A stretch of 13,410 nt of DNA from Deltaproteobacteria bacterium (GTDB taxonomy: Bacteria; Desulfobacterota; Desulfobulbia; Desulfobulbales; Desulfobulbaceae): assembly GCA_024277485.1 (NCBI GenBank), contig JAJRVA010000043.1, positions 1 through 13,410 of the forward strand, written 5' to 3'. How positions within the stretch are numbered: the first letter of the stretch is position 1; every line of letters begins with the position of its first letter. The position numbers and the translations under genes are program-made. Shown in pieces: positions 1 through 9,693 of the stretch. The notes under the pieces are model-generated. The model saw only the letters and a program-made list of their open reading frames with translations. It was not told the origin of the DNA and searched no databases.

Positions 1-779
1 CCCAGGTCCTGTTCACGGTTGATGTAGGTATACTGTCCGGGCAGAATTGAAGCAAAACTCTGGTTGACGAACTGCCAGAGTCCCTTGTAACCGGCCACCG
101 CCTTTTCAAAATGAATGACAAAGCTTGCTCCCTGCGCTAACTCCTCGCCCAGGCAGTAGGCTACCGGTCTGTTTTCACTATGGTAAATGCCGCCGCAGAG
201 CTGCAGTTCCTCCATTCTTTCCAGGCCTTCCCGGGCAGCGATATAGTCTCCCGGGCTGTCCCGGCCGTCTCGCCACTGTTCCAGGACCTCCAGGGCGTCC
301 GCGACATGTTTTTCAAGAAGCGGTCGGCCTTCGCAGGGAAACGTGTTGACAAAGGCCTTGATAAGATTTCTTTTTTTGGAAAATTTTCTGCCGGCAAGCG
401 TGGCAAGGTCATTGCGCAGGTAGAGGTAATCAAAATTATCCCGGTCTTCACGCACGTTCAGCCCCAGCAGGGTCAACTCCTCTGCCTGGGGTTCTGAGAC
501 GCATTTCATTGAACCGTATTTCTGCAGCAGGGTCTCGAGCATATCCATTGCCGGCAGGCCGAAGGGACTCATGAAAAAAGGAATGCCACTGTCCAGGCCG
601 GTAAGAACAAGCAGGTCGTCCGGCAGCCGGGCCACCCTGTAGTGATGGTCCCGGCGAAAAAGATAGAGGTTGGCAAAGGTAAACTCGGAGATGCCGTCCC
701 GCAGCTGTTGCAGCAGAGGATGCAGGAGTGGACGCATCTTCAGTGAGAGTTCTGCGGTGTTCGGGAAATCGGGTATCAT
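1..779 (-). CDS. DUF2156 (phosphatidylglycerol lysyltransferase C-domain-like) protein, partial
   Basis: The reading frame is open from an ATG at 779-777 to the left edge, giving 259 full codons with no stop, so the C-terminus is missing. The N-terminal part carries ISEFTFANLYLFR (about residues 30-42), the middle KFSKKRNLIKAF (132-143), and the end of the visible part INREQDLG (253-260). Together these are typical of the DUF2156 family, a GNAT-like fold related to the aminoacyl-transferring domain of MprF/LPG synthase. Members of this size are soluble and lack the MprF flippase helices; their substrate is generally unknown, so I give no reaction. No good Shine-Dalgarno sequence precedes the ATG, but the start fits the family's N-terminus and lies about 30 nt downstream of a good promoter at 817-844. 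The gene points away from everything else in the window and stands alone here. Confidence 0.82.
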   Translation of the reverse strand, partial: MIPDFPNTAELSLKMRPLLHPLLQQLRDGISEFTFANLYLFRRDHHYRVARLPDDLLVLTGLDSGIPFFMSPFGLPAMDMLETLLQKYGSMKCVSEPQAEELTLLGLNVREDRDNFDYLYLRNDLATLAGRKFSKKRNLIKAFVNTFPCEGRPLLEKHVADALEVLEQWRDGRDSPGDYIAAREGLERMEELQLCGGIYHSENRPVAYCLGEELAQGASFVIHFEKAVAGYKGLWQFVNQSFASILPGQYTYINREQDL

Positions 780-816: not shown

Positions 817-844
817 AGTATACACGAGCCTGCCTGTTATGCAA
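817..844 (-). promoter_or_regulatory. Sigma70-type promoter of the DUF2156 gene
   Basis: Read on the minus strand, TTGCAT (844-839) and TATACT (822-817) are separated by 16 bp. Each box matches the consensus at five of six or nearly so. The predicted start near 810 would give a leader of about 30 nt before the ATG at 779. The boxes are clear to the eye; their use is inferred. Confidence 0.55.
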
Positions 845-876: not shown

Positions 877-918
877 AAAAAAACTGGACCAAGGCAGGAG
901 GTAAGCCACCTTGGTCCA
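877..918 (-). terminator. Intrinsic terminator on the minus strand
   Basis: A perfect 10-bp stem, TGGACCAAGG (918-909) with CCTTGGTCCA (894-885), has a 14-nt loop and is followed, in minus-strand reading, by G and then seven T (883-877). It ends the candidate small RNA and insulates the DUF2156 promoter about 33 bp further on. On the plus strand no T-run follows the stem, so termination should be one-directional. Confidence 0.75.
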
Positions 919-949
919 TCAAGGAGAAATTTACTGAAGCGCCATCAGT
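877..949 (-). ncRNA. Candidate small RNA of about 73 nt with C/U-rich anti-SD-like loops
   Basis: No protein gene fits this stretch, yet the minus strand has every part of an independent small transcript. A promoter (986-957) predicts a start near 949-951. The first element is a hairpin, TACTGA (950-945), loop 944-938, TCAGTA (937-932), 6 bp and perfect. A single-stranded pyrimidine-rich linker follows, with CTCCTT at 926-921. Then comes a perfect 10-bp stem, TGGACCAAGG (918-909) with CCTTGGTCCA (894-885), whose 14-nt loop contains ACCTCCT. The stem is followed by seven T (883-877), as in an intrinsic terminator. Two exposed CUCC motifs complementary to ribosome binding sites are a known design in trans-acting bacterial sRNAs, for example the C/U-rich terminator loop of Helicobacter RepG. 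I know no named family that matches. The alternative is a plain terminator for stray minus-strand transcription. Confidence 0.5.
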
Positions 950-956
950 ATATTTT

Positions 957-986
957 CTTATATACCACAGCGTGTCATGATGTCAA
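957..986 (-). promoter_or_regulatory. Promoter of the candidate small RNA
   Basis: On the minus strand a perfect -35 box TTGACA (986-981) is followed by TATATA (964-959, 16-bp spacer), overlapping TATAAG (962-957, 18-bp spacer). Either -10 choice predicts a start at about 949-951, directly at the first hairpin of the candidate RNA. No coding sequence starts downstream before the terminator at 885-918. Confidence 0.55.
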
Positions 987-2382: not shown

Positions 2383-2529
2383 AAGGATATCGTAAGATTA
2401 TCTTGAAGTTCCGGGGGGAGCCTCAAGGTTTTCATTCTATATAACTGTATCGCGACAGGCAGGAAACCTGCAGAATCGTTCATGCTGCAGTGGCCGATAA
2501 AGCGGTTCGTTTTTGCCGGAGGAATTGTT

Positions 2530-2571
2530 ATGGGGAAAGAAGGGGGGAAGGATGAAGCGAGCCACGTATGA
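2530..2571 (+). CDS. 13-residue leader ORF overlapping the ccoN start
   Basis: An ATG at 2530 stands 6 nt after a perfect GGAGGA (2518-2523) and opens a 13-codon frame (MGKEGGKDEASHV) that stops at 2569-2571, 20 nt inside ccoN in a different frame. The ribosome binding site of ccoN (2541-2551) lies within this mini-ORF, so its translation would expose or occlude that site. The arrangement is visible; translation and function are inferred, and it may be accidental because the codons are simply a G-rich SD region. Confidence 0.3.
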   Translation: MGKEGGKDEASHV

Positions 2572-3964
2572 TTATGATATTGTCAGGAGCTTCGTCAACT
2601 GGAGTATCCTGTGGGGGCTGGTCGCCGTTCTGGTCGGGGTGATCGTCTCCTTTCAGATGGTTGAGCCCGGGCTTAACTTTCCTCCCTACTTCACCTTTGG
2701 CCGCCTGCGGCCCATCCACACCAACGCGGGTATCTACGGCTGGGGGGTCGGGGTTATCTTTGCCACCTTCCTTTACATCGTCCAGCGTCTCTGCAAGACG
2801 CCACTCTGGAGTTCCAAGCTTGCCAGGTTTCAGCTCTGGTTTTTCAATGTCACCATCATCGCGTCCGCGCTGACCCTGCTGCTTGGCTATACCACCAGCA
2901 AGGAATATCACGAGATGGAATGGCCCATCGACGTGATGGTGGTCATCCTCTGGGTAGCGTTCGGCCTGAATGTGATCATGACCATTATCAAGCGCAAGGA
3001 AGAGCACATGTACATCTCCCTCTGGTACATGATGGCTGCAATCGTGGGCGTGGCGATTCTGTACCTGGTCAATGCCGCGGCCGTGCCGGTATCGCTCTTC
3101 AAGTCCTACTCGGCCTATGCCGGCACCAACGACGCCAATGTTCAGTGGTGGTTCGGGCACAATGCCGTGGCCATGGCGCTGACCGCCCCTCCACTGGCCA
3201 TGTTCTATTACTTTCTGCCCAAGTCGACCGGGGTGCCGATCTACAGCCATCGTATGTCGATCATCGCCTTCTGGAGCCTGATTTTCATGTATCTCTGGAC
3301 CGGGGCCCATCACCTGCTCTGGACCCCTGTGCCGGACTGGATCCAGACCCTGGCCATGGCCTTTTCCGTCATGCTGATCGCCCCATCCTGGGGTTCGGTC
3401 TTTAACGGGTATCTGTCCATGAACGGCCAGTGGCATCAGATGCGCGAAAACTACCTGGTCAAATTTCTGATCATCGGCATCACCTTCTACGGCCTGCAGA
3501 CCCTGCAGGGCCCGATGCAGGCGATCCGGACATTCTCGGCCTTCATCCACTACACTGACTGGATTCCGGCCCATATCCACATGGGAACCATGGGCTGGGT
3601 GTCCATGATCTGCTTTGCCTCTATTTATTACCTGGCCCCGCGGATATACGGCAGGAATCTTTACTCCATCCCCCTGGCCAACCTGCATTTCTGGCTGATC
3701 CTGATCGGCCAGCTGATGTGGTCGATTTCACTCTGGATCGCCGGAGTGCTGCAGGCCGGGATGTGGAGCGCCATGAACCCGGACGGCAGCCTGACCTATA
3801 CGTTCATGGAAACCATGGTCGAGATGTATCCCTACTGGTGGATCCGGGCTGCTGGCGGCGTGGTCTACTTTGCCGGCGTCGTCGTCTTTATCTATAATAT
3901 TGTCATGACGGTTCGCCAGGAGGGGGCTGAATCCCCCGAAGCTGCTGCTGAAGGGAGGGCCTGA
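2552..3964 (+). CDS. ccoN: cbb3-type cytochrome c oxidase subunit I (CcoN)
   Basis: This is the catalytic heme-copper subunit, an inner-membrane protein that reduces O2 to water and pumps protons. The 470 residues carry all expected ligands: H56 (RPIHTNAG) and H343 for low-spin heme b, H341 (PAHIHMG) for heme b3, H203 (WFGHN) and H253/H254 (GAHH) for CuB. Y247, six residues before H253, matches the cross-linked tyrosine of cbb3 oxidases. About twelve hydrophobic segments are seen, without the extra N-terminal helices found in some CcoN proteins. I chose the ATG at 2552, preceded by a G-rich SD (AGGGGGGAAGG, 2541-2551), because MKRATYDYDIVR fits the family start; a TTG at 2513 in the same frame has no SD. 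It is first in the cco operon and is followed after 2 nt by the ccoO fusion. Confidence 0.95.
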   Translation: MKRATYDYDIVRSFVNWSILWGLVAVLVGVIVSFQMVEPGLNFPPYFTFGRLRPIHTNAGIYGWGVGVIFATFLYIVQRLCKTPLWSSKLARFQLWFFNVTIIASALTLLLGYTTSKEYHEMEWPIDVMVVILWVAFGLNVIMTIIKRKEEHMYISLWYMMAAIVGVAILYLVNAAAVPVSLFKSYSAYAGTNDANVQWWFGHNAVAMALTAPPLAMFYYFLPKSTGVPIYSHRMSIIAFWSLIFMYLWTGAHHLLWTPVPDWIQTLAMAFSVMLIAPSWGSVFNGYLSMNGQWHQMRENYLVKFLIIGITFYGLQTLQGPMQAIRTFSAFIHYTDWIPAHIHMGTMGWVSMICFASIYYLAPRIYGRNLYSIPLANLHFWLILIGQLMWSISLWIAGVLQAGMWSAMNPDGSLTYTFMETMVEMYPYWWIRAAGGVVYFAGVVVFIYNIVMTVRQEGAESPEAAAEGRA

Positions 3965-3966
3965 TC

Positions 3967-4845
3967 ATGTGGGAAAAGAGACCTGTTCTGCTCCTGGTTC
4001 TGGCCACCGGCGCGATTCTTGTCGGTACAATCATAACCATGGTCCTGCCGTTCGCCTGGGTCAATACCGAGGCCGACCGGATTGCTTCCGTTGTCCCCTA
4101 CACTGCCCTGCAGCAGGAAGGGCGTGATGTCTACATCCGTGAAGGATGCAACAACTGCCATACCCAGACGGTCCGGCCGCTGGTGGCCGAGGTTATCCGC
4201 TACGGCGATTATTCAAAGAGCGGCGAGTTTGTCTATGACCGGCCCTTTCTCTGGGGATCGAAACGGACCGGTCCTGACCTGGCCCGGCTCGGCGGCAAAT
4301 ATCCTGACGAGTGGCATTACAAGCACATGGCATCACCACGGTCAATGGTGCCGAAAACCAACATGCCTGCCTATGGCTGGCTGGCGGAAAATACACTTGA
4401 TCCGCAGATGATCCGGCGTAAGATGGACGTCCTTGGTTTTCCCTGCACCGACAAGGAAATCCAGGCCCTGGCAGGAAAGACCGAGATGGACGCCATTGTC
4501 GCCTACCTGCAGAAACTTGGCAACGACATCCCCTGGCGTGAAGCCGCGGCAACAACTATTGTCGGTGATTTAAAGAATCCGTACGCTGGTGTCGAGCATG
4601 CAACCATGGAACCCTGGGAACGCCTCTACATGGAGAACTGCGCGGCGTGTCACGGTGAGCACCAGGAAGGCGACATCGGACCGGAGCTGGACGGGGCCGG
4701 CCTGGACGAGGAGGAACTGTTCGAGATCATCTACAATGGAATCACCGACGGCGGCATGCCGCCCTTTTCCAGCCTTGGCGCCGACAAGGTCTGGAAGCTG
4801 GTCAATTTCGTCAAATACTACAACATGGGCGAGGATCACCACTAA
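3967..4845 (+). CDS. ccoO: CcoO fused to a C-terminal cytochrome c domain (diheme)
   Basis: Residues 1-195 are a standard CcoO: an N-terminal membrane anchor (about 7-30), heme motif CNNCH (C61, C64, H65) in the family context GCNNCHTQTVRP, and axial Met133 in TNMPAY. Ordinary CcoO ends soon after the YLQKLG helix (180-185). Here a further domain of about 90 residues follows, with CAACH (C225, C228, H229), GPELDG (238-243) and a likely axial Met264 in GGMPPF, which resembles a CcoP cytochrome domain. The 292-residue protein should therefore hold two c hemes in the periplasm and pass electrons from a donor cytochrome to CcoN. It starts 2 nt after the ccoN stop, with GGGAGGG upstream. Because the next genes hold only a heme-less CcoP-like anchor, I infer that a CcoP heme domain was moved onto CcoO; a separate domain gain is also possible. 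Confidence 0.92.
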   Translation: MWEKRPVLLLVLATGAILVGTIITMVLPFAWVNTEADRIASVVPYTALQQEGRDVYIREGCNNCHTQTVRPLVAEVIRYGDYSKSGEFVYDRPFLWGSKRTGPDLARLGGKYPDEWHYKHMASPRSMVPKTNMPAYGWLAENTLDPQMIRRKMDVLGFPCTDKEIQALAGKTEMDAIVAYLQKLGNDIPWREAAATTIVGDLKNPYAGVEHATMEPWERLYMENCAACHGEHQEGDIGPELDGAGLDEEELFEIIYNGITDGGMPPFSSLGADKVWKLVNFVKYYNMGEDHH

Positions 4846-4986
4846 ATGGACCTGGCATCGATTTTGTATCTTGGCACCACCTTTGGCCTTTTTGTGATTT
4901 TCGTGCTGATTTTCATCCGCACCTACAGCAGGAAGCGCAAGGAAGAGGGAGAGATCGCCAAGTACCGCATGCTTGATGATGATTAG
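4846..4986 (+). CDS. ccoQ: CcoQ/FixQ-like small membrane protein
   Basis: The ATG directly follows the ccoO stop codon with no gap, and the frame encodes 46 residues: one hydrophobic helix (about 5-25), a basic stretch RTYSRKRK (25-32) and an acidic end. Size, topology and place between ccoO and the CcoP-like gene fit CcoQ, a non-catalytic subunit that stabilises cbb3 oxidase. Unusually, its last residues KYRMLDD (39-45) are identical in sequence and in residue number to those of CcoS encoded at 9502-9693, so it could instead be a CcoS-type duplicate occupying the ccoQ place. The identification rests on context more than on sequence. Confidence 0.65.
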   Translation: MDLASILYLGTTFGLFVIFVLIFIRTYSRKRKEEGEIAKYRMLDDD

Positions 4987-5009
4987 ATGGTAAAAGCGGG
5001 GAGTAAGCT

Positions 5010-5243
5010 ATGACAACGCAAGACAATATACACAGTGTGGATGAACCCTTTGACGGCATAAAAGAGCGCAAGGGAACCAAACCGCCGATCTACTTCAATG
5101 TTCTGTTCTATGGTCTGATCGTCTGGGGGGTGCTCTTCATGGGCTATTACCTGTTCAGCGGCTGGAGCTCCCACGGCGAGTTCCAGGAAAAGATGGCGGC
5201 CCACCAGGAGCGCTACTCACAAGGCATGCAGGGCGGTAAATAA
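5010..5243 (+). CDS. CcoP N-terminal anchor domain only (FixP_N-like), heme-less
   Basis: The 77-residue protein begins with EPFDGIKER (11-19), close to the FDGIxE signature of the N-terminal domain of CcoP, followed by one transmembrane helix (about residues 30-50) and a charged tail FQEKMAAHQERY. A complete CcoP is about 300 residues with two CxxCH motifs; here the frame stops at TAA 5241-5243 before any heme motif, and no cytochrome c domain follows in any frame up to ccoG. Together with the extra cytochrome domain on CcoO this reads as a split subunit: the anchor stays separate and the heme domain is fused elsewhere. An SD (GGGGAG, about 4998-5003) precedes the ATG, so it looks like an intact gene rather than a decayed one. 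It is the last structural gene before a terminator hairpin. Confidence 0.8.
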   Translation: MTTQDNIHSVDEPFDGIKERKGTKPPIYFNVLFYGLIVWGVLFMGYYLFSGWSSHGEFQEKMAAHQERYSQGMQGGK

Positions 5244-5307
5244 CGCATTGTGTGCGAACGGGGAATGCCCTTTGCCCCCGCTCCCTGCAGGCATGTGAAC
5301 GGTATTA

Positions 5308-5337
5308 CCGGGCGGTGTCATCGTAGCCCGGTTTTTT
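5308..5337 (+). terminator. Intrinsic terminator/attenuator between oxidase and assembly genes
   Basis: CCGGGC (5308-5313) and GCCCGG (5326-5331) form a perfect GC-only 6-bp stem with a 12-nt loop, followed at once by six T (5332-5337). It lies 64 nt after the CcoP-like gene and one base before the ccoG ATG. Since no clear promoter is seen between 5244 and 5338, it probably lets only part of the transcripts run on into ccoGHIS. Confidence 0.75.
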
Positions 5338-5338
5338 C

Positions 5339-6577
5339 ATGATAAACAGAAGCCGTTTCATAGGTCCCAGGCGCAGGCTGGTTCAATGGACCGCGACCCT
5401 GCTGCTTCTGCTCCTTCCCTGGGTGGAGGTGGATGGCAAAAGCCTGTTTTTAATTGATATTCCCGGGCTTCGTCTCTACCTGTTCGGTCAGATACTGCGG
5501 ATCCAGGACCTGTACCTTGTCCTGCTGGCTGCCCTTGTTTTTATTGCAGGATTCCTGCTGGTCACCGTCGTGCTCGGCCGGGTCTGGTGCGGCTGGTTCT
5601 GTCCGCAGACCACCCTGTCGGATGTGGCTGAATGGGCGGGGCGGCGGCTCGGGCTGACCGTGCGGCACAACAGGCTGCACGGGGCCCTCTGGCGCAAGGT
5701 TCTCACGCAGGGGGTCTACCTGCTGCTTGCTTTTCTGGTGGCATCCAACCTGCTCTGGTATTTCATACCGCCCCGTCTTTTTTTTGTGCGTCTTTTTTCG
5801 TTTGATCTGCACTACGCGGCCTGGATTACCTTCAGTGTAACCGGGCTGCTGGTCTACCTTGACCTGGCCCTGGTGCGGCGGCTGTTGTGCAGCGAGTTCT
5901 GTCCCTACGGGAGGTTTCAGACAACCCTTGTCGACAGGGCGACGCTGAGCCTGCACCTTCCTGAAATCGAGCTTGAGCGATGCATCGAGTGTGATTCATG
6001 CGTCCGGACCTGTCCGATGGAGATCGACATCCGGGATGGTTACCAGGTTGAGTGTACCAGCTGCGGGCGCTGCCTTGATGCCTGCCGCCGGGTCATGGCA
6101 AGGCGGGGCGAAGCAGGACTGATACAATACACTTTCGGCCTGCACGGGGAGGGGGCAGGAGAGTTGCTTAATCCGCGGGTTCTTCTTCCCGGTACGGCAA
6201 TGCTTGTCCTGCTGCTGGTTCTCGTGATTGCCCTGTATGACCGCCCGGCCGCCTCTCTCAAGGTCGCTGTCTCCCACACGGCTGCTCCTCGTCACCTGGC
6301 CGGCGGCCGGATGGGAACTTTTTTCAACGCGTGGATCAACAATCGCAGCCCGGAGGCTGCAACCTACTTTCTGCGGGCCCGTCACAAGGAGTCCGGCGCG
6401 TCCCTTTCCCTCAAGGGACAGGTACGGGCCAGGCTGGCTGCCGGGGAGAACCGACGCCTGGATTTCGTGCTGCTGTCCCCGGCCGGCACATCCCTGACCG
6501 TTGAATTCTTTCTGACCGATGAAGAAGGAGTGGAATTGTCTGCCGCGGAAGCGTATATTGGAGAGACACGGAAGTGA
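5339..6577 (+). CDS. ccoG: CcoG/RdxA/FixG polyferredoxin, cbb3 oxidase assembly
   Basis: CcoG is a membrane iron-sulfur protein needed for cbb3 maturation; studies of the family link it to Cu(II) reduction before copper insertion. The 412 residues show hydrophobic segments near 15-30, 58-80, 125-142, 160-180 and 284-300. The conserved CGWFCPQ (84-90) and CSEFCPYG (184-191) motifs are present. Two ferredoxin-type [4Fe-4S] sites follow, C215/218/221/225 and C239/242/245/249. The C-terminus (about 305-412) is a periplasmic Ig-like domain as in FixG_C. It is somewhat shorter than typical members (about 470), mainly at the N-terminus. The ATG at 5339 is the only candidate, since an in-frame TAG lies at 5324-5326. 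It has no SD, and the terminator T-run ends one base before it. It overlaps ccoH by a GTGA junction. Confidence 0.93.
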   Translation: MINRSRFIGPRRRLVQWTATLLLLLLPWVEVDGKSLFLIDIPGLRLYLFGQILRIQDLYLVLLAALVFIAGFLLVTVVLGRVWCGWFCPQTTLSDVAEWAGRRLGLTVRHNRLHGALWRKVLTQGVYLLLAFLVASNLLWYFIPPRLFFVRLFSFDLHYAAWITFSVTGLLVYLDLALVRRLLCSEFCPYGRFQTTLVDRATLSLHLPEIELERCIECDSCVRTCPMEIDIRDGYQVECTSCGRCLDACRRVMARRGEAGLIQYTFGLHGEGAGELLNPRVLLPGTAMLVLLLVLVIALYDRPAASLKVAVSHTAAPRHLAGGRMGTFFNAWINNRSPEAATYFLRARHKESGASLSLKGQVRARLAAGENRRLDFVLLSPAGTSLTVEFFLTDEEGVELSAAEAYIGETRK

Positions 6578-7044
6578 GCAAGACTATGACTGAGCCCAAA
6601 AAAAGGAATATCTACCCTGGCATGATTCTGCTGCTGATAGGCGCTTTCCTGGTTTTCCTGTCCTGGTCGGCCTTCCAGGCTGCCGGGCTCGGCACCAGGG
6701 TGACCGATGCCGCGTACTACAGCAAGGGGCTGAAATACAACACCACCCAGGTTGAAAAACGGGCTGCCGAGGTCCTTGGCTGGAACCTGGAGACCCGGCT
6801 TGACGGCCGCATCCTTTCGTTCCATCTCACCGATAACAGGGGAGGGGAAGTTGACCGGGCGGTGGGTTCCCTCTACCTGGCGATCCCCGGATCGGCCGAG
6901 AATATGTACCTGCCGCTTGAGGAGGTCTCCGCTGGCCGGTACAGGGTCAGTTTCGACGATGATGTGAGCGGCACCATTCAGGCACGCCTTGAACTGGAGC
7001 GTGACGGCGCCCGGCTCAACCGTCAACTGCTGCTCAATCTCTAA
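6574..7044 (+). CDS. ccoH: CcoH/FixH family cbb3 oxidase assembly protein
   Basis: This 156-residue protein has one N-terminal transmembrane helix (about 14-36) and a periplasmic beta-rich domain. The helix is followed by AAYYSKGLKYN (46-56), matching the family's D-x-YY-x-KGLxY pattern. FixH/CcoH is required for assembly and stability of the cbb3 complex and works alongside the copper ATPase CcoI. The GTG start at 6574 overlaps the ccoG stop (GTGA) and has GGAGAG (6560-6565) 8 nt upstream; an ATG at 6586 in the same frame is the alternative, without an SD. The place between ccoG and ccoI is the standard order. Confidence 0.87.
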   Translation: MSKTMTEPKKRNIYPGMILLLIGAFLVFLSWSAFQAAGLGTRVTDAAYYSKGLKYNTTQVEKRAAEVLGWNLETRLDGRILSFHLTDNRGGEVDRAVGSLYLAIPGSAENMYLPLEEVSAGRYRVSFDDDVSGTIQARLELERDGARLNRQLLLNL

Positions 7045-7078
7045 GCCCTGATCCCTGAAACCCGGCGCCTGACAAGCC

Positions 7079-9484
7079 ATGCACCCTCCCGAGATCTGCA
7101 CCCACTGCAATTTGCCGATTTCACCGGTTGATCGGGTGGTTGACCGGGTTGACGGTCGTGAACACCCCTTCTGCTGCCGGGGCTGTCGCGGCGCCTACGC
7201 CATGATCACCGGCGCCGGACTTGATTCCTTTTACGCGAAAAGGAGCTGGGAAAACCCGGGTATACCCGAAGGCGCTTTTGAATCCATCTATAATGATGCA
7301 TACCTTGAAACATATGCCACCGACACTGAGAATGGCCGGAAAATTTCCTTTATCATTGCCGGCATTCGCTGTGCAGCCTGCATATGGCTCATCGAGTCAA
7401 TTCTGCGTAAAATAACCGGAGTCAAGGAAGCATCGGTCAATTATGGAACGCATCGCGGCCGTGTCTGTTTTGATCCCAAACAGGTGACACCGGGCCGCAT
7501 TTTCAAGGCTGTTGCCGGGCTGGGGTATGTCCCGAAGCCTTATAGCCGGGATGAAGCGAGCAGTCTGCAGGAGCAGGAAAGCAGGTCGCTTCTCATCCGT
7601 TTTGTTACGGCGGCATTTCTTTCAATGCAGCTCATGGGCTATTCCATTGCGCTGTATGGCGGATATTTCAGCGGCATGGACCAGGAGAGCAGGCAGCTTT
7701 TGCAGTACTTTGCCGCCCTGGTGACAACGCCGGTGGTTTTTTTTTCCGGGGCCCCGTTTCTCAAAGGTGGATGGCGCTCTGTCCGCAACATGTCTCCCAA
7801 CATGGACCTGCTGATTGCCCTGGGCGTGCTGACGGCGTATCTGTACAGTCTCGGCGCCTTGTTTCTGGGAGGTGAGGTCTACTTTGAAACCTCTGCCATG
7901 ATTATCACCCTGATCCTGCTGGGCAGGATTTTTGAAAACAGCGCCCGCCGGAAGGCGTTTGCCGGAGTTGAAAGCCTGCTCCGTCTTTCTCCTGAGACAG
8001 CGCATCTTGAGCAGGAAGGCACAACAATCACTGTGCCGAGCAGCAGACTGCAGGCCGGTGACACAATCCTGGTCCGGCCCGGAGAGCGTTTTCCCGTTGA
8101 TGGCGTATTGCTGAACCATACGACCGAGGTGGATGAATCGGTTTTGACAGGCGAGCCTGATCCGGTTCTCAGAAGACCCGGGGAGGTGGTCCTTTCAGGA
8201 GCGCTGAACATATCCACTGCCATACAGGTCCGGGTAACACGGACAGCCGCAACCTCCTTTATGGCCCGCGTTGCACGTATGGTCGAGGAGGCGCAGAATC
8301 GGAAGGCACCGGTTCAGGGCCTGGCCGACAAGGTGGCACGTGTGTTTGTCCCGGTTGTCATAATGATAGCGCTGGCAACCGGTCTGTTCTGGTCTTTCGT
8401 CTCACAGGGCCCGGTTGAGCCCCTGCTCTATGCTGTATCGGTCCTTGTGGTTGCCTGTCCCTGCGCACTTGGCCTGGCCACCCCCACGGCAATACTTGTT
8501 GCCACCGGGACCGCCGCCGGCAGGGGAATCCTTTTCCGGGGCGGAGATACACTGGAGAGTACGGCCCGTCTCACAGTTGCCGCCTTTGATAAAACAGGTA
8601 CCCTGACAGAAGGCGATCCGCGGGTGGTCCGGATTGATCCCTGCCGCGGAGATGAACGGGTACTGCTGGAGCTGGCGGCAAAGGTTGAGGCGGGATCGAA
8701 TCATCCCATTGCCCGTGGTATAGTGCATAAAGCCCGCCTGGAGGGAATCGGCTTCAGCGGAGAGGGGGGCGAAGCGGTTCCCGGCAGGGGAGTGCGCCTG
8801 GCAACGGGCAAGGGCATGATTGTGGTCGGCAGCCGCCGGTTCATGGAGATGAACGGCGTCGATTTGAAGATGGACGAACCAACAGCCTTGACTGAAGTCC
8901 ATGTTGCCCTGGACGGGCGCTACCAGGGGTGTATTTTTCTTGATAACCGGCTCAGGCCGGAAGCACGGGAGGTCATCAGCAAGATCAGGGGCCTGGGGTT
9001 GAGGACTTTCCTGCTCACGGGTGACCACAGGTCTTCAGCGGAGAAAACAGCAGAGAAGGCGGACATTCAACACCCTGTCTTCAGCATGAGTCCCCGGGAC
9101 AAGGCAGACTGGGTCAGGAAAATGAACCAGGCCGGCGACACGGTACTCATGGTCGGTGACGGTGTGAATGACGCGCCGGCCCTGTCCGAGGCTGACGTGG
9201 GCTGCGCCATGGGGAGCGGAACAGATATAGCGCTTGAGACATCCGACCTGGTGCTGATGCATGACAACCTGGAACAGTTGCCCGCAGCAGTCGAACTGGC
9301 AAGGAAGACACGGCGGATTATCCGCCAGAACCTGTTCTGGGCTTTTTCCTACAACCTGGTCGCGCTCCCCCTTGCGGCTGCCGGAAAACTTGCCCCGGTC
9401 TATGCGGCAACCGCGATGGCCGCCAGTTCCGTCCTGGTGGTGGCCAACTCCCTGCGGCTGAAAAAAGTCAAGGGGCTGCAATAG
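7079..9484 (+). CDS. ccoI: CcoI/FixI copper-translocating P1B-type ATPase
   Basis: CcoI exports Cu across the inner membrane to supply CuB of the oxidase. The 801 residues hold, in order: an N-terminal cysteine domain CTHC (7-10) with FCCRGC (31-36), typical of CcoI-type ATPases; a heavy-metal-associated domain with GIRCAAC (95-101); the actuator TGEP (357-360); the transmembrane metal site CPC (460-462); the phosphorylation site DKTGT (D504); HP (542-543) of the nucleotide-binding domain; TGD (647-649); and GDGVNDAP (693-700). Eight hydrophobic segments are expected. All catalytic residues are intact, so it should be active. The ATG at 7079 lies 34 nt after ccoH without a good SD, but the protein begins exactly where the cysteine domain does. 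It shares the ccoGHIS operon. Confidence 0.95.
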   Translation: MHPPEICTHCNLPISPVDRVVDRVDGREHPFCCRGCRGAYAMITGAGLDSFYAKRSWENPGIPEGAFESIYNDAYLETYATDTENGRKISFIIAGIRCAACIWLIESILRKITGVKEASVNYGTHRGRVCFDPKQVTPGRIFKAVAGLGYVPKPYSRDEASSLQEQESRSLLIRFVTAAFLSMQLMGYSIALYGGYFSGMDQESRQLLQYFAALVTTPVVFFSGAPFLKGGWRSVRNMSPNMDLLIALGVLTAYLYSLGALFLGGEVYFETSAMIITLILLGRIFENSARRKAFAGVESLLRLSPETAHLEQEGTTITVPSSRLQAGDTILVRPGERFPVDGVLLNHTTEVDESVLTGEPDPVLRRPGEVVLSGALNISTAIQVRVTRTAATSFMARVARMVEEAQNRKAPVQGLADKVARVFVPVVIMIALATGLFWSFVSQGPVEPLLYAVSVLVVACPCALGLATPTAILVATGTAAGRGILFRGGDTLESTARLTVAAFDKTGTLTEGDPRVVRIDPCRGDERVLLELAAKVEAGSNHPIARGIVHKARLEGIGFSGEGGEAVPGRGVRLATGKGMIVVGSRRFMEMNGVDLKMDEPTALTEVHVALDGRYQGCIFLDNRLRPEAREVISKIRGLGLRTFLLTGDHRSSAEKTAEKADIQHPVFSMSPRDKADWVRKMNQAGDTVLMVGDGVNDAPALSEADVGCAMGSGTDIALETSDLVLMHDNLEQLPAAVELARKTRRIIRQNLFWAFSYNLVALPLAAAGKLAPVYAATAMAASSVLVVANSLRLKKVKGLQ

Positions 9485-9501
9485 CCCCTGGAGGCGGATC
9501 T

Positions 9502-9693
9502 ATGTTTAAATCAATCCTGATACTCCTTGTCCTGTCCTTTTTCTTGGGGATCGCGGCCTGGCTTGTCTTTCTATGGGCCGTGAAAAAAGGGGAGTTTGAT
9601 GACATTGAAGGTCCCAAGTACCGGATGTTGGATGACGAAGATGCGCCTCCGCGGAACAGAGACCGGAAGGATGCCCACGACACCCACCAATGA
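9502..9693 (+). CDS. ccoS: CcoS, cbb3 oxidase maturation protein
   Basis: The 63-residue protein has one N-terminal membrane helix (about 4-26) followed by EFDDIEGPKYRMLDDED (31-47), the signature of CcoS, which is needed for heme and copper cofactor insertion in cbb3 oxidase. The start has GGAGG upstream (within 9489-9495) at suitable distance. It lies 17 nt after ccoI and overlaps the next gene by ATGA, implying translational coupling. The acidic and charged tail after residue 47 is slightly longer than in many CcoS proteins. Confidence 0.92.
   Translation: MFKSILILLVLSFFLGIAAWLVFLWAVKKGEFDDIEGPKYRMLDDEDAPPRNRDRKDAHDTHQ

Follow-up and report, generated by a model that had tools for sequence, protein, structure and literature searches.

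The stretch of DNA analysed in this study, referred to as the window, comprises 13,410 bases from a probable Desulfobulbales genome. A partial gene on the minus strand (3..779) encodes a protein with a Pfam match to LPG_synthase_C (PF09924), and an Oxidored_FMN gene (Pfam) occupies positions 1183-2313 of the plus strand. Between the two, on the minus strand at positions 877..951 and outside of the LPG gene, lies the candidate small RNA gene considered here. Further along the window (2513-9693) is a cbb3 oxidase cluster in which COX1 and FixO were identified by Pfam, and ccoG, a P-type ATPase and a small ccoS-like ORF by resemblance.

As given in a preliminary description of this DNA, the minus strand carries a TTGACA -35 box (981..986) and a -10 box that may be read either as TATATA (959..964), with a 16-nt spacer, or as TATAAG (957..962), with an 18-nt spacer. 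Both -10 candidates lack the T at position 6 and for this reason the promoter was not among the sites returned by a simple promoter scan of the window. Within the promoter spacer, and overlapping the -10 box, is the palindrome TGACACGCTGTGGTA (963..977), a candidate operator of the form TRNCAC-NNN-GTGRTA. Judged from the promoter spacing, transcription would start at about position 951 and produce an RNA of ~75 nt, termed the short form. At its predicted 5' end is the 6-bp hairpin TACUGA-UGGCGCU-UCAGUA (932..950) with the loop UGGCGCU, followed by the linker AAUUUCUCCUUGA (919..931) containing CUCCUU (921-926), both of which had been described correctly. An intrinsic terminator (885..918) comes next, separated by one G from the expected run of seven T (877..883). 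The terminator had been described as a 10-bp stem with an ACCUCCU loop; it is instead a stem of 13 pairs, G-U included, with the 8-nt loop CUUACCUC, and ACCUCCU (902-896) is divided between loop and stem. The stem is the longest among the 26 terminator-like sites of the window. The 75-nt RNA has a predicted fold of -27.1 kcal/mol (z = -3.9) that none of 200 shuffled sequences matched in stability, and the linker is single-stranded in this fold.

The preliminary description also held that no ORF fits the element. Two plus-strand ORFs of 58 and 66 aa do overlap it, but no ORF is conserved, and a peptide-coding reading was dropped on that account. In the window, the minus-strand ATG of the short form is followed by a frame of just 4 codons, and there is no such ATG in the related genome G077. 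A candidate separate promoter for the downstream LPG gene, TTGCAT-16-TATACT, is present at 817..844 of the minus strand. By eye, the corresponding sequences are TTGTAA-17-TATACT in G077 and TTGAAT-16-TATAAT in G002, with that of G001 being unclear.

Conservation of the short form and the long-form family

Genome contigs were scanned with the LPG protein and the best 80 of 436 relatives were kept. A blastn comparison with the intergenic region identified the element in two of these 80, L001 (titled uncultured Desulfobulbaceae, E = 4e-38) and L002 (titled Desulfobacteraceae, E = 7e-29). A DNA search of 73 genomes from the family of L001 gave three matches, namely L001, L002 and a third genome, G077. 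In all four cases, the window included, the short form is positioned 5' of an LPG_synthase_C gene. The sRNAs are 95-96% identical to that of the window with 67 of 75 columns invariant over the four, distributed as 13/13 in the linker, 32/34 in the terminator and 16/19 in the 5' hairpin. The promoter has 14 of 30 columns invariant, the operator is kept in the three short-form orthologues, and the -10 box begins with TATA in G001 and G002 and with TATC in G077. In the flanks, 15 of 133 columns are invariant in the upstream DNA and 10 of 97 in the spacer to the LPG gene. Since the sRNA unit is conserved and its flanks are not, it appears to be selected as a unit. The conserved promoter and stems between variable flanks that had been anticipated in close relatives are thus found in three further genomes, and with promoter elements, hairpin, linker and terminator all kept, these relatives support the proposal that the element is an independent sRNA gene having a promoter and terminator of its own, as does the lack of an Rfam match at this position.

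Two covariance models were made, R1 from the first three copies and a broader R2 from ten copies, and both detected a long form in the order of L001. The R1 match at the window scored 108.7 bits, the window being part of the model seed. Across the order of L001 (257 genomes), R2 matched 16 genomes at E ≤ 0.001, of which seven (G001, G002 and G074-G078) were accepted because linker, operator promoter and terminator were all present. The matches in G043, G108, G114, G117, G130, G131, G221, G231 and G232 were judged by eye to be chance or unclear, and the R1 matches L110 and L111 were dropped likewise. A sample of the phylum gave R2 matches in five of 395 genomes; G274, G434, G494 and G615 were dropped by eye, and no credible family member besides G001 was found among these 395. 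Both R2 searches used stricter filters at which weak matches are lost. The family totals 12 copies in eight genomes including the window, four short and eight long.

The eight long copies are found in seven genomes, with two in tandem in G001 and one each in G002, G074, G075, G076, G077 and G078. In the long form, a 5' arm (GUUGAAAGUGCUUCAG in G074) pairs with a 3' arm (CUGAAAGCACUUCAAC) and is followed by the linker and a GC-rich terminator. The layout of the terminator is common to both forms while its stem differs between them. What all copies share is the linker with CUCCUU, a complement of Shine-Dalgarno sequences, and the linker core UUCUCCUUG is present in 8/8 long copies as well as in the short forms. 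An EI24/CysZ-type gene (PF07264, above cut-off) is located 3' of the long form in 7/7 genomes. The tandem copies of G001 (L132:5699-6426) are ~640 bp apart, one of them without a recognisable operator; a CbiM gene (PF01891) starts 0.3 kb from them and an XRE/two-CW gene 3.3 kb.

The preliminary description called for covariation in both stems, and this was found for the terminator but not for the local 5' hairpin. In an alignment of four short and six long copies that was fitted to the structure, 10 of the 12 modelled pairs of the terminator helix change on both sides, while the local 5' hairpin has no two-sided changes and its outer pairs are broken in six of the ten copies. The eight long forms were also aligned with MAFFT and assigned the structure of one of them, with 92.7% of cells able to pair. 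Two-sided changes occur in 7 of 24 pairs (arm helix 4/15, terminator 3/9), a number reached by 3 of 500 shuffles, with slid versions giving 1-3. Given covariation in the arm helix and none in the local hairpin, it is the long-range helix that has support in the long forms. The predicted local 5' hairpin is based on conservation in the short forms only.

A search against Rfam release 15 (4227 models) gave no match at any of the 12 copies (E ≤ 5 for the window, E ≤ 3 in 16 loci), consistent with the preliminary description, in which no matching family could be named. Sub-threshold matches to Betaproteobacteria_toxic_sRNA (23.8 bits, gathering 50) and anti-hemB (20.6 bits, gathering 49.5) at locus L209 were treated as chance, and the other sub-threshold matches fall away from the family copies. 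The loci L117, L118, L121 and L127, from four genomes in the order, have a pyrimidine-rich stretch (e.g. TTATCTCTTTTCTCC) directly 5' of a GC-rich terminator, and these units are possibly a separate anti-SD sRNA family.

A shared operator and its candidate regulator

TTGAC is present in all 12 family promoters and the palindrome TRNCAC-NNN-GTGRTA lies between the -35 and -10 boxes in 11 of them, the exception being the long copy G001a which has no recognisable operator. The pattern TTGACN(2-7)TRNCACNNNGTGRTA has a single match in the 13,410 bases of the window and none in 200 shuffles. With TRNCACNNNGTGRTA at 963-977, between its -35 and -10 boxes, the window promoter is counted with the candidate regulon. 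Over the 257 genomes of the order, the pattern occurs at 92 sites in 71 genomes (5 sites for a reversed-pattern control), ten of the 92 being promoters of the sRNA family. Some of the sites will be chance.

Operator loci were inspected in 68 cases with 74 sites. From BLAST comparisons to two reference proteins, nine sites are located 5' of a gene for a propeller-like secreted protein and seven 5' of an XRE gene. Identified by eye, nine sites are 5' of CO-dehydrogenase genes and five are 5' of an ABC ATPase gene (one tested). The one CO-dehydrogenase gene that was tested matched Prismane/CO dehydrogenase above the Pfam cut-off and TIGR01702 at 1e-89, below cut-off with the ORF being cut. One site each was found 5' of a type III sulfide:quinone reductase gene (NF049943, above cut-off) and of a DsbD-type gene, and two sites 5' of a gene of NapC/NirT type (one tested); the remaining sites are 5' of diverse or no clear genes. 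The term "propeller-like" is an impression and not a domain match; the one protein tested had no Pfam or NCBIfam match, and a PDB sequence search gave no match at E ≤ 1.

Several operator loci have additional features. At L189, L190, L193 and L194, a long leader extends between the operator promoter and the propeller-like gene, to ~200 nt past the site, and contains a common inverted repeat ACCATCTT..AAGATGGT or similar. At L212 (G110) and L214 (G113), operator sites flank divergent propeller-like and ABC genes. A further sRNA-like unit with the same operator is found at L209:1501-1700 (G001:C2:29506), having the arms GCUGUUAG and CUAACAGC, a C/U stretch UUUCAUUUCUCCG and a terminator loop ACCCCCCUC. 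At L200 (G011:C23) and L201 (G012:C175), the operator promoter is followed by a terminator-ended unit with CUGAUGGCG, which resembles the hairpin of the window; these units are perhaps a distant family member missed by the models.

The XRE gene product combines a helix-turn-helix with a cysteine-rich two-CW domain at the C-terminus. For the G001 protein, the HTH_3 match exceeded its cut-off and that to NF045718 (32.3 bits) fell just short of the cut-off of 35, while the L198 homologue matched NF045718 above cut-off at 46.1 bits and HTH_19 below cut-off. No mention of the two-CW domain was found in the open-licence PMC papers searched. The gene is present in 211 of the 257 genomes (E ≤ 1e-15) with one per genome in all seven sRNA genomes. 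On the strand of the gene, at least 16 operator sites are located 43-84 bp 5' of it, and three further sites precede it in G197, G228 and G004. It was found in 69 of 71 genomes with sites and 142 of 186 genomes without (Fisher p = 2e-5, the genomes not being independent); G110 and G113, both of which have operator sites, gave no XRE/two-CW match at E ≤ 1e-15.

The sequence CACNNNGTGGTA occurs no more than 400 nt upstream of the KTQK codons in 26 of 30 best-hit XRE loci, including those of all seven sRNA genomes, and 23 of these 26 sites are positioned at 89-104 nt. The remaining 171,692 strand-bases of these 30 loci contain none. In comparative work, an operator placed before the gene of its own regulator is commonly read as a sign of autoregulation. 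The placement of CACNNNGTGGTA ties the operator to the XRE/two-CW protein which, judging from where the sites lie, probably binds it. As the operator covers the spacer and the -10 box, binding would probably repress the promoter rather than activate it.

Proposed mode of action and alternative explanations

Comparison between genomes establishes, at the level of sequence, the gene unit with its promoter elements, operator and terminator, and the family to which it belongs; support for the XRE/two-CW protein as the regulator is indirect, and the exact 5' end, repression in place of activation, the anti-SD mechanism and the targets are offered as predictions. The reading favored here, with somewhat better than even confidence, is of a stand-alone sRNA that is controlled by the XRE/two-CW protein, independent of Hfq, trans-acting by anti-SD pairing, and RoxS-like in its logic. 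An RNA of ~75 nt would start at a sigma-70-type promoter whose spacer and -10 box are overlaid by a palindromic operator, and would end at its own intrinsic terminator. The XRE-type helix-turn-helix protein with the two-CW domain would bind the operator and probably repress the promoter. Once repression is lifted, the RNA may pair without Hfq, by way of the linker core UUCUCCUUG, with G/A-rich ribosome-binding sites. The ACCUCCU of the terminator would perhaps join in pairing with the target mRNAs, and translation of the predicted targets would be lowered.

A search for Hfq (PF17209) found it in none of the seven sRNA genomes (the relatives G001, G002 and G074-G078), with controls positive in 5 of 14; incomplete assemblies could hide single cases. 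With respect to targets, the pattern CAAGGAGAAA-N(1-9)-ATG was not enriched, having 43 sites in 22.4 Mb of the seven sRNA genomes versus 76 in 31.1 Mb of seven genomes without the sRNA, where one of the 43 is the antisense of an sRNA copy and the comparison genomes are larger. In the window, duplexes with 14 ribosome-binding regions were unremarkable against shuffles. The best of these involved ccoN and is not convincing since 22 of 200 mononucleotide shuffles were equally strong. The C/U-rich pairing role put forward in the preliminary description remains plausible from the linker being invariant in all 13 columns of the four short forms, but these two target tests were negative.

The negative tests would suit an independent RNA that acts on a protein or as a sponge on another RNA rather than on ribosome-binding sites. 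The 5' hairpin and terminator of the short form are nearly as conserved as the linker, which seems to exceed what linker pairing would need. However, the linker, unpaired in the fold, is the stretch that both forms retain, and the pairing parts of RoxS are described as C-rich regions (PMC4409812); a protein or sponge target is thus considered unlikely, though with a real share of the probability. A different explanation would have the element as a cis-acting leader, either an attenuator or a riboswitch-like terminator, that controls read-through into the LPG_synthase_C gene in the short form or the EI24/CysZ-type gene in the long form. Each form does have one constant neighbor on the same strand, LPG_synthase_C behind four of four short copies and EI24 behind the long form in seven of seven genomes. 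These genes belong to different families, however, the 97-nt spacer to the LPG gene is not conserved, and promoter-like sequences precede the LPG gene in three of the four cases by eye. Moreover, a conserved antiterminator pairing is not apparent, because the two forms differ in their terminator stems and yet retain the part upstream. The attenuator version was rejected on this last ground, and a leader of any type is regarded as improbable.

Terminator-like sites are frequent in the window (26 versus 14.7 in shuffles), as would be expected if hairpins and promoter had come together by chance or if the element was the mere terminator of a longer transcript from further upstream. Against this, four genomes keep promoter elements, start region and unit together, with only 15/133 invariant columns in the DNA upstream, and the upstream neighbors of the element differ between the window and G077. 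Such an origin is very improbable.

The stand-alone sRNA, probably under XRE/two-CW control, shares its promoter site with genes of CO and sulfide metabolism, and is therefore probably the RNA arm of a redox regulator. A broader proposal, to which about even odds are given, is that an order-wide and undescribed redox regulator (XRE plus two-CW, operator TACCACNNNGTGGTA) governs its own gene along with CO dehydrogenase, a type III sulfide:quinone reductase and cytochrome genes, and that one clade recruited multi-copy, Hfq-independent anti-SD sRNAs, long and short, as its negative arm in parallel to Rex-RoxS of Firmicutes.

Comparison with known systems

Beyond the preliminary description, there is a larger family, a long form with a 5' arm, a shared operator and a probable regulator. 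The short and long forms are apparently an uncatalogued sRNA family in a few sulfur-cycle bacteria, and the link to an XRE/two-CW regulator, apparently undescribed as well, is the point of interest. The operator yields a candidate regulon of CO dehydrogenase, one sulfide:quinone reductase and a NapC/NirT cytochrome. An sRNA family with a probable regulator and operator, and without an Hfq match in the seven genomes searched, makes Hfq-free sRNA regulation testable. A search of open-licence PMC papers for small regulatory RNAs of desulfobulb- names returned nothing on topic, only periodontal-biofilm work by title, which suggests that few sRNAs have been described from these sulfur-cycling bacteria. 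The sRNA literature on sulfate reducers does include a study in which Oleidesulfovibrio was annotated computationally from Rfam families.

Many Rfam sRNA families likewise consist of a stem, a linker and an intrinsic terminator. The "cuckoo" type sRNAs of alphaproteobacteria also occur in multiple copies with anti-Shine-Dalgarno motifs; their motif placement differs from the family here, and the sequence comparison with them was made through Rfam only. The Rfam models, among which we take RsaE to be included, gave no match at the 12 copies, and by sequence and structure the family does not group with RoxS/RsaE.

In RepG of Helicobacter pylori, a C/U-rich terminator loop pairs with a G-repeat in the tlpB leader (PMC8295292). 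The short form resembles RepG as described there in being a free-standing intergenic gene and in its C/U-rich terminator loop, the latter a parallel already drawn in the preliminary description. The two differ in that the loop CUUACCUC is confined to the short form and absent from the long forms, the linker being the part common to all. RoxS/RsaE of Firmicutes pairs at ribosome-binding sites through C-rich regions, its gene is controlled by ResD (ResDE) and Rex, and deletion of hfq is described as being without major effect (PMC4409812, PMC5419742). Compared to RoxS/RsaE as described in these sources, the family here is similar in its proposed Hfq-independence and in a C-rich region predicted to pair at ribosome-binding sites, and would be so in redox control at the promoter if the regulator of the conserved operator there responds to redox state. 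It differs in belonging to another phylum, in having a probable XRE/two-CW operator instead of a Rex site, and in its linker core UUCUCCUUG.
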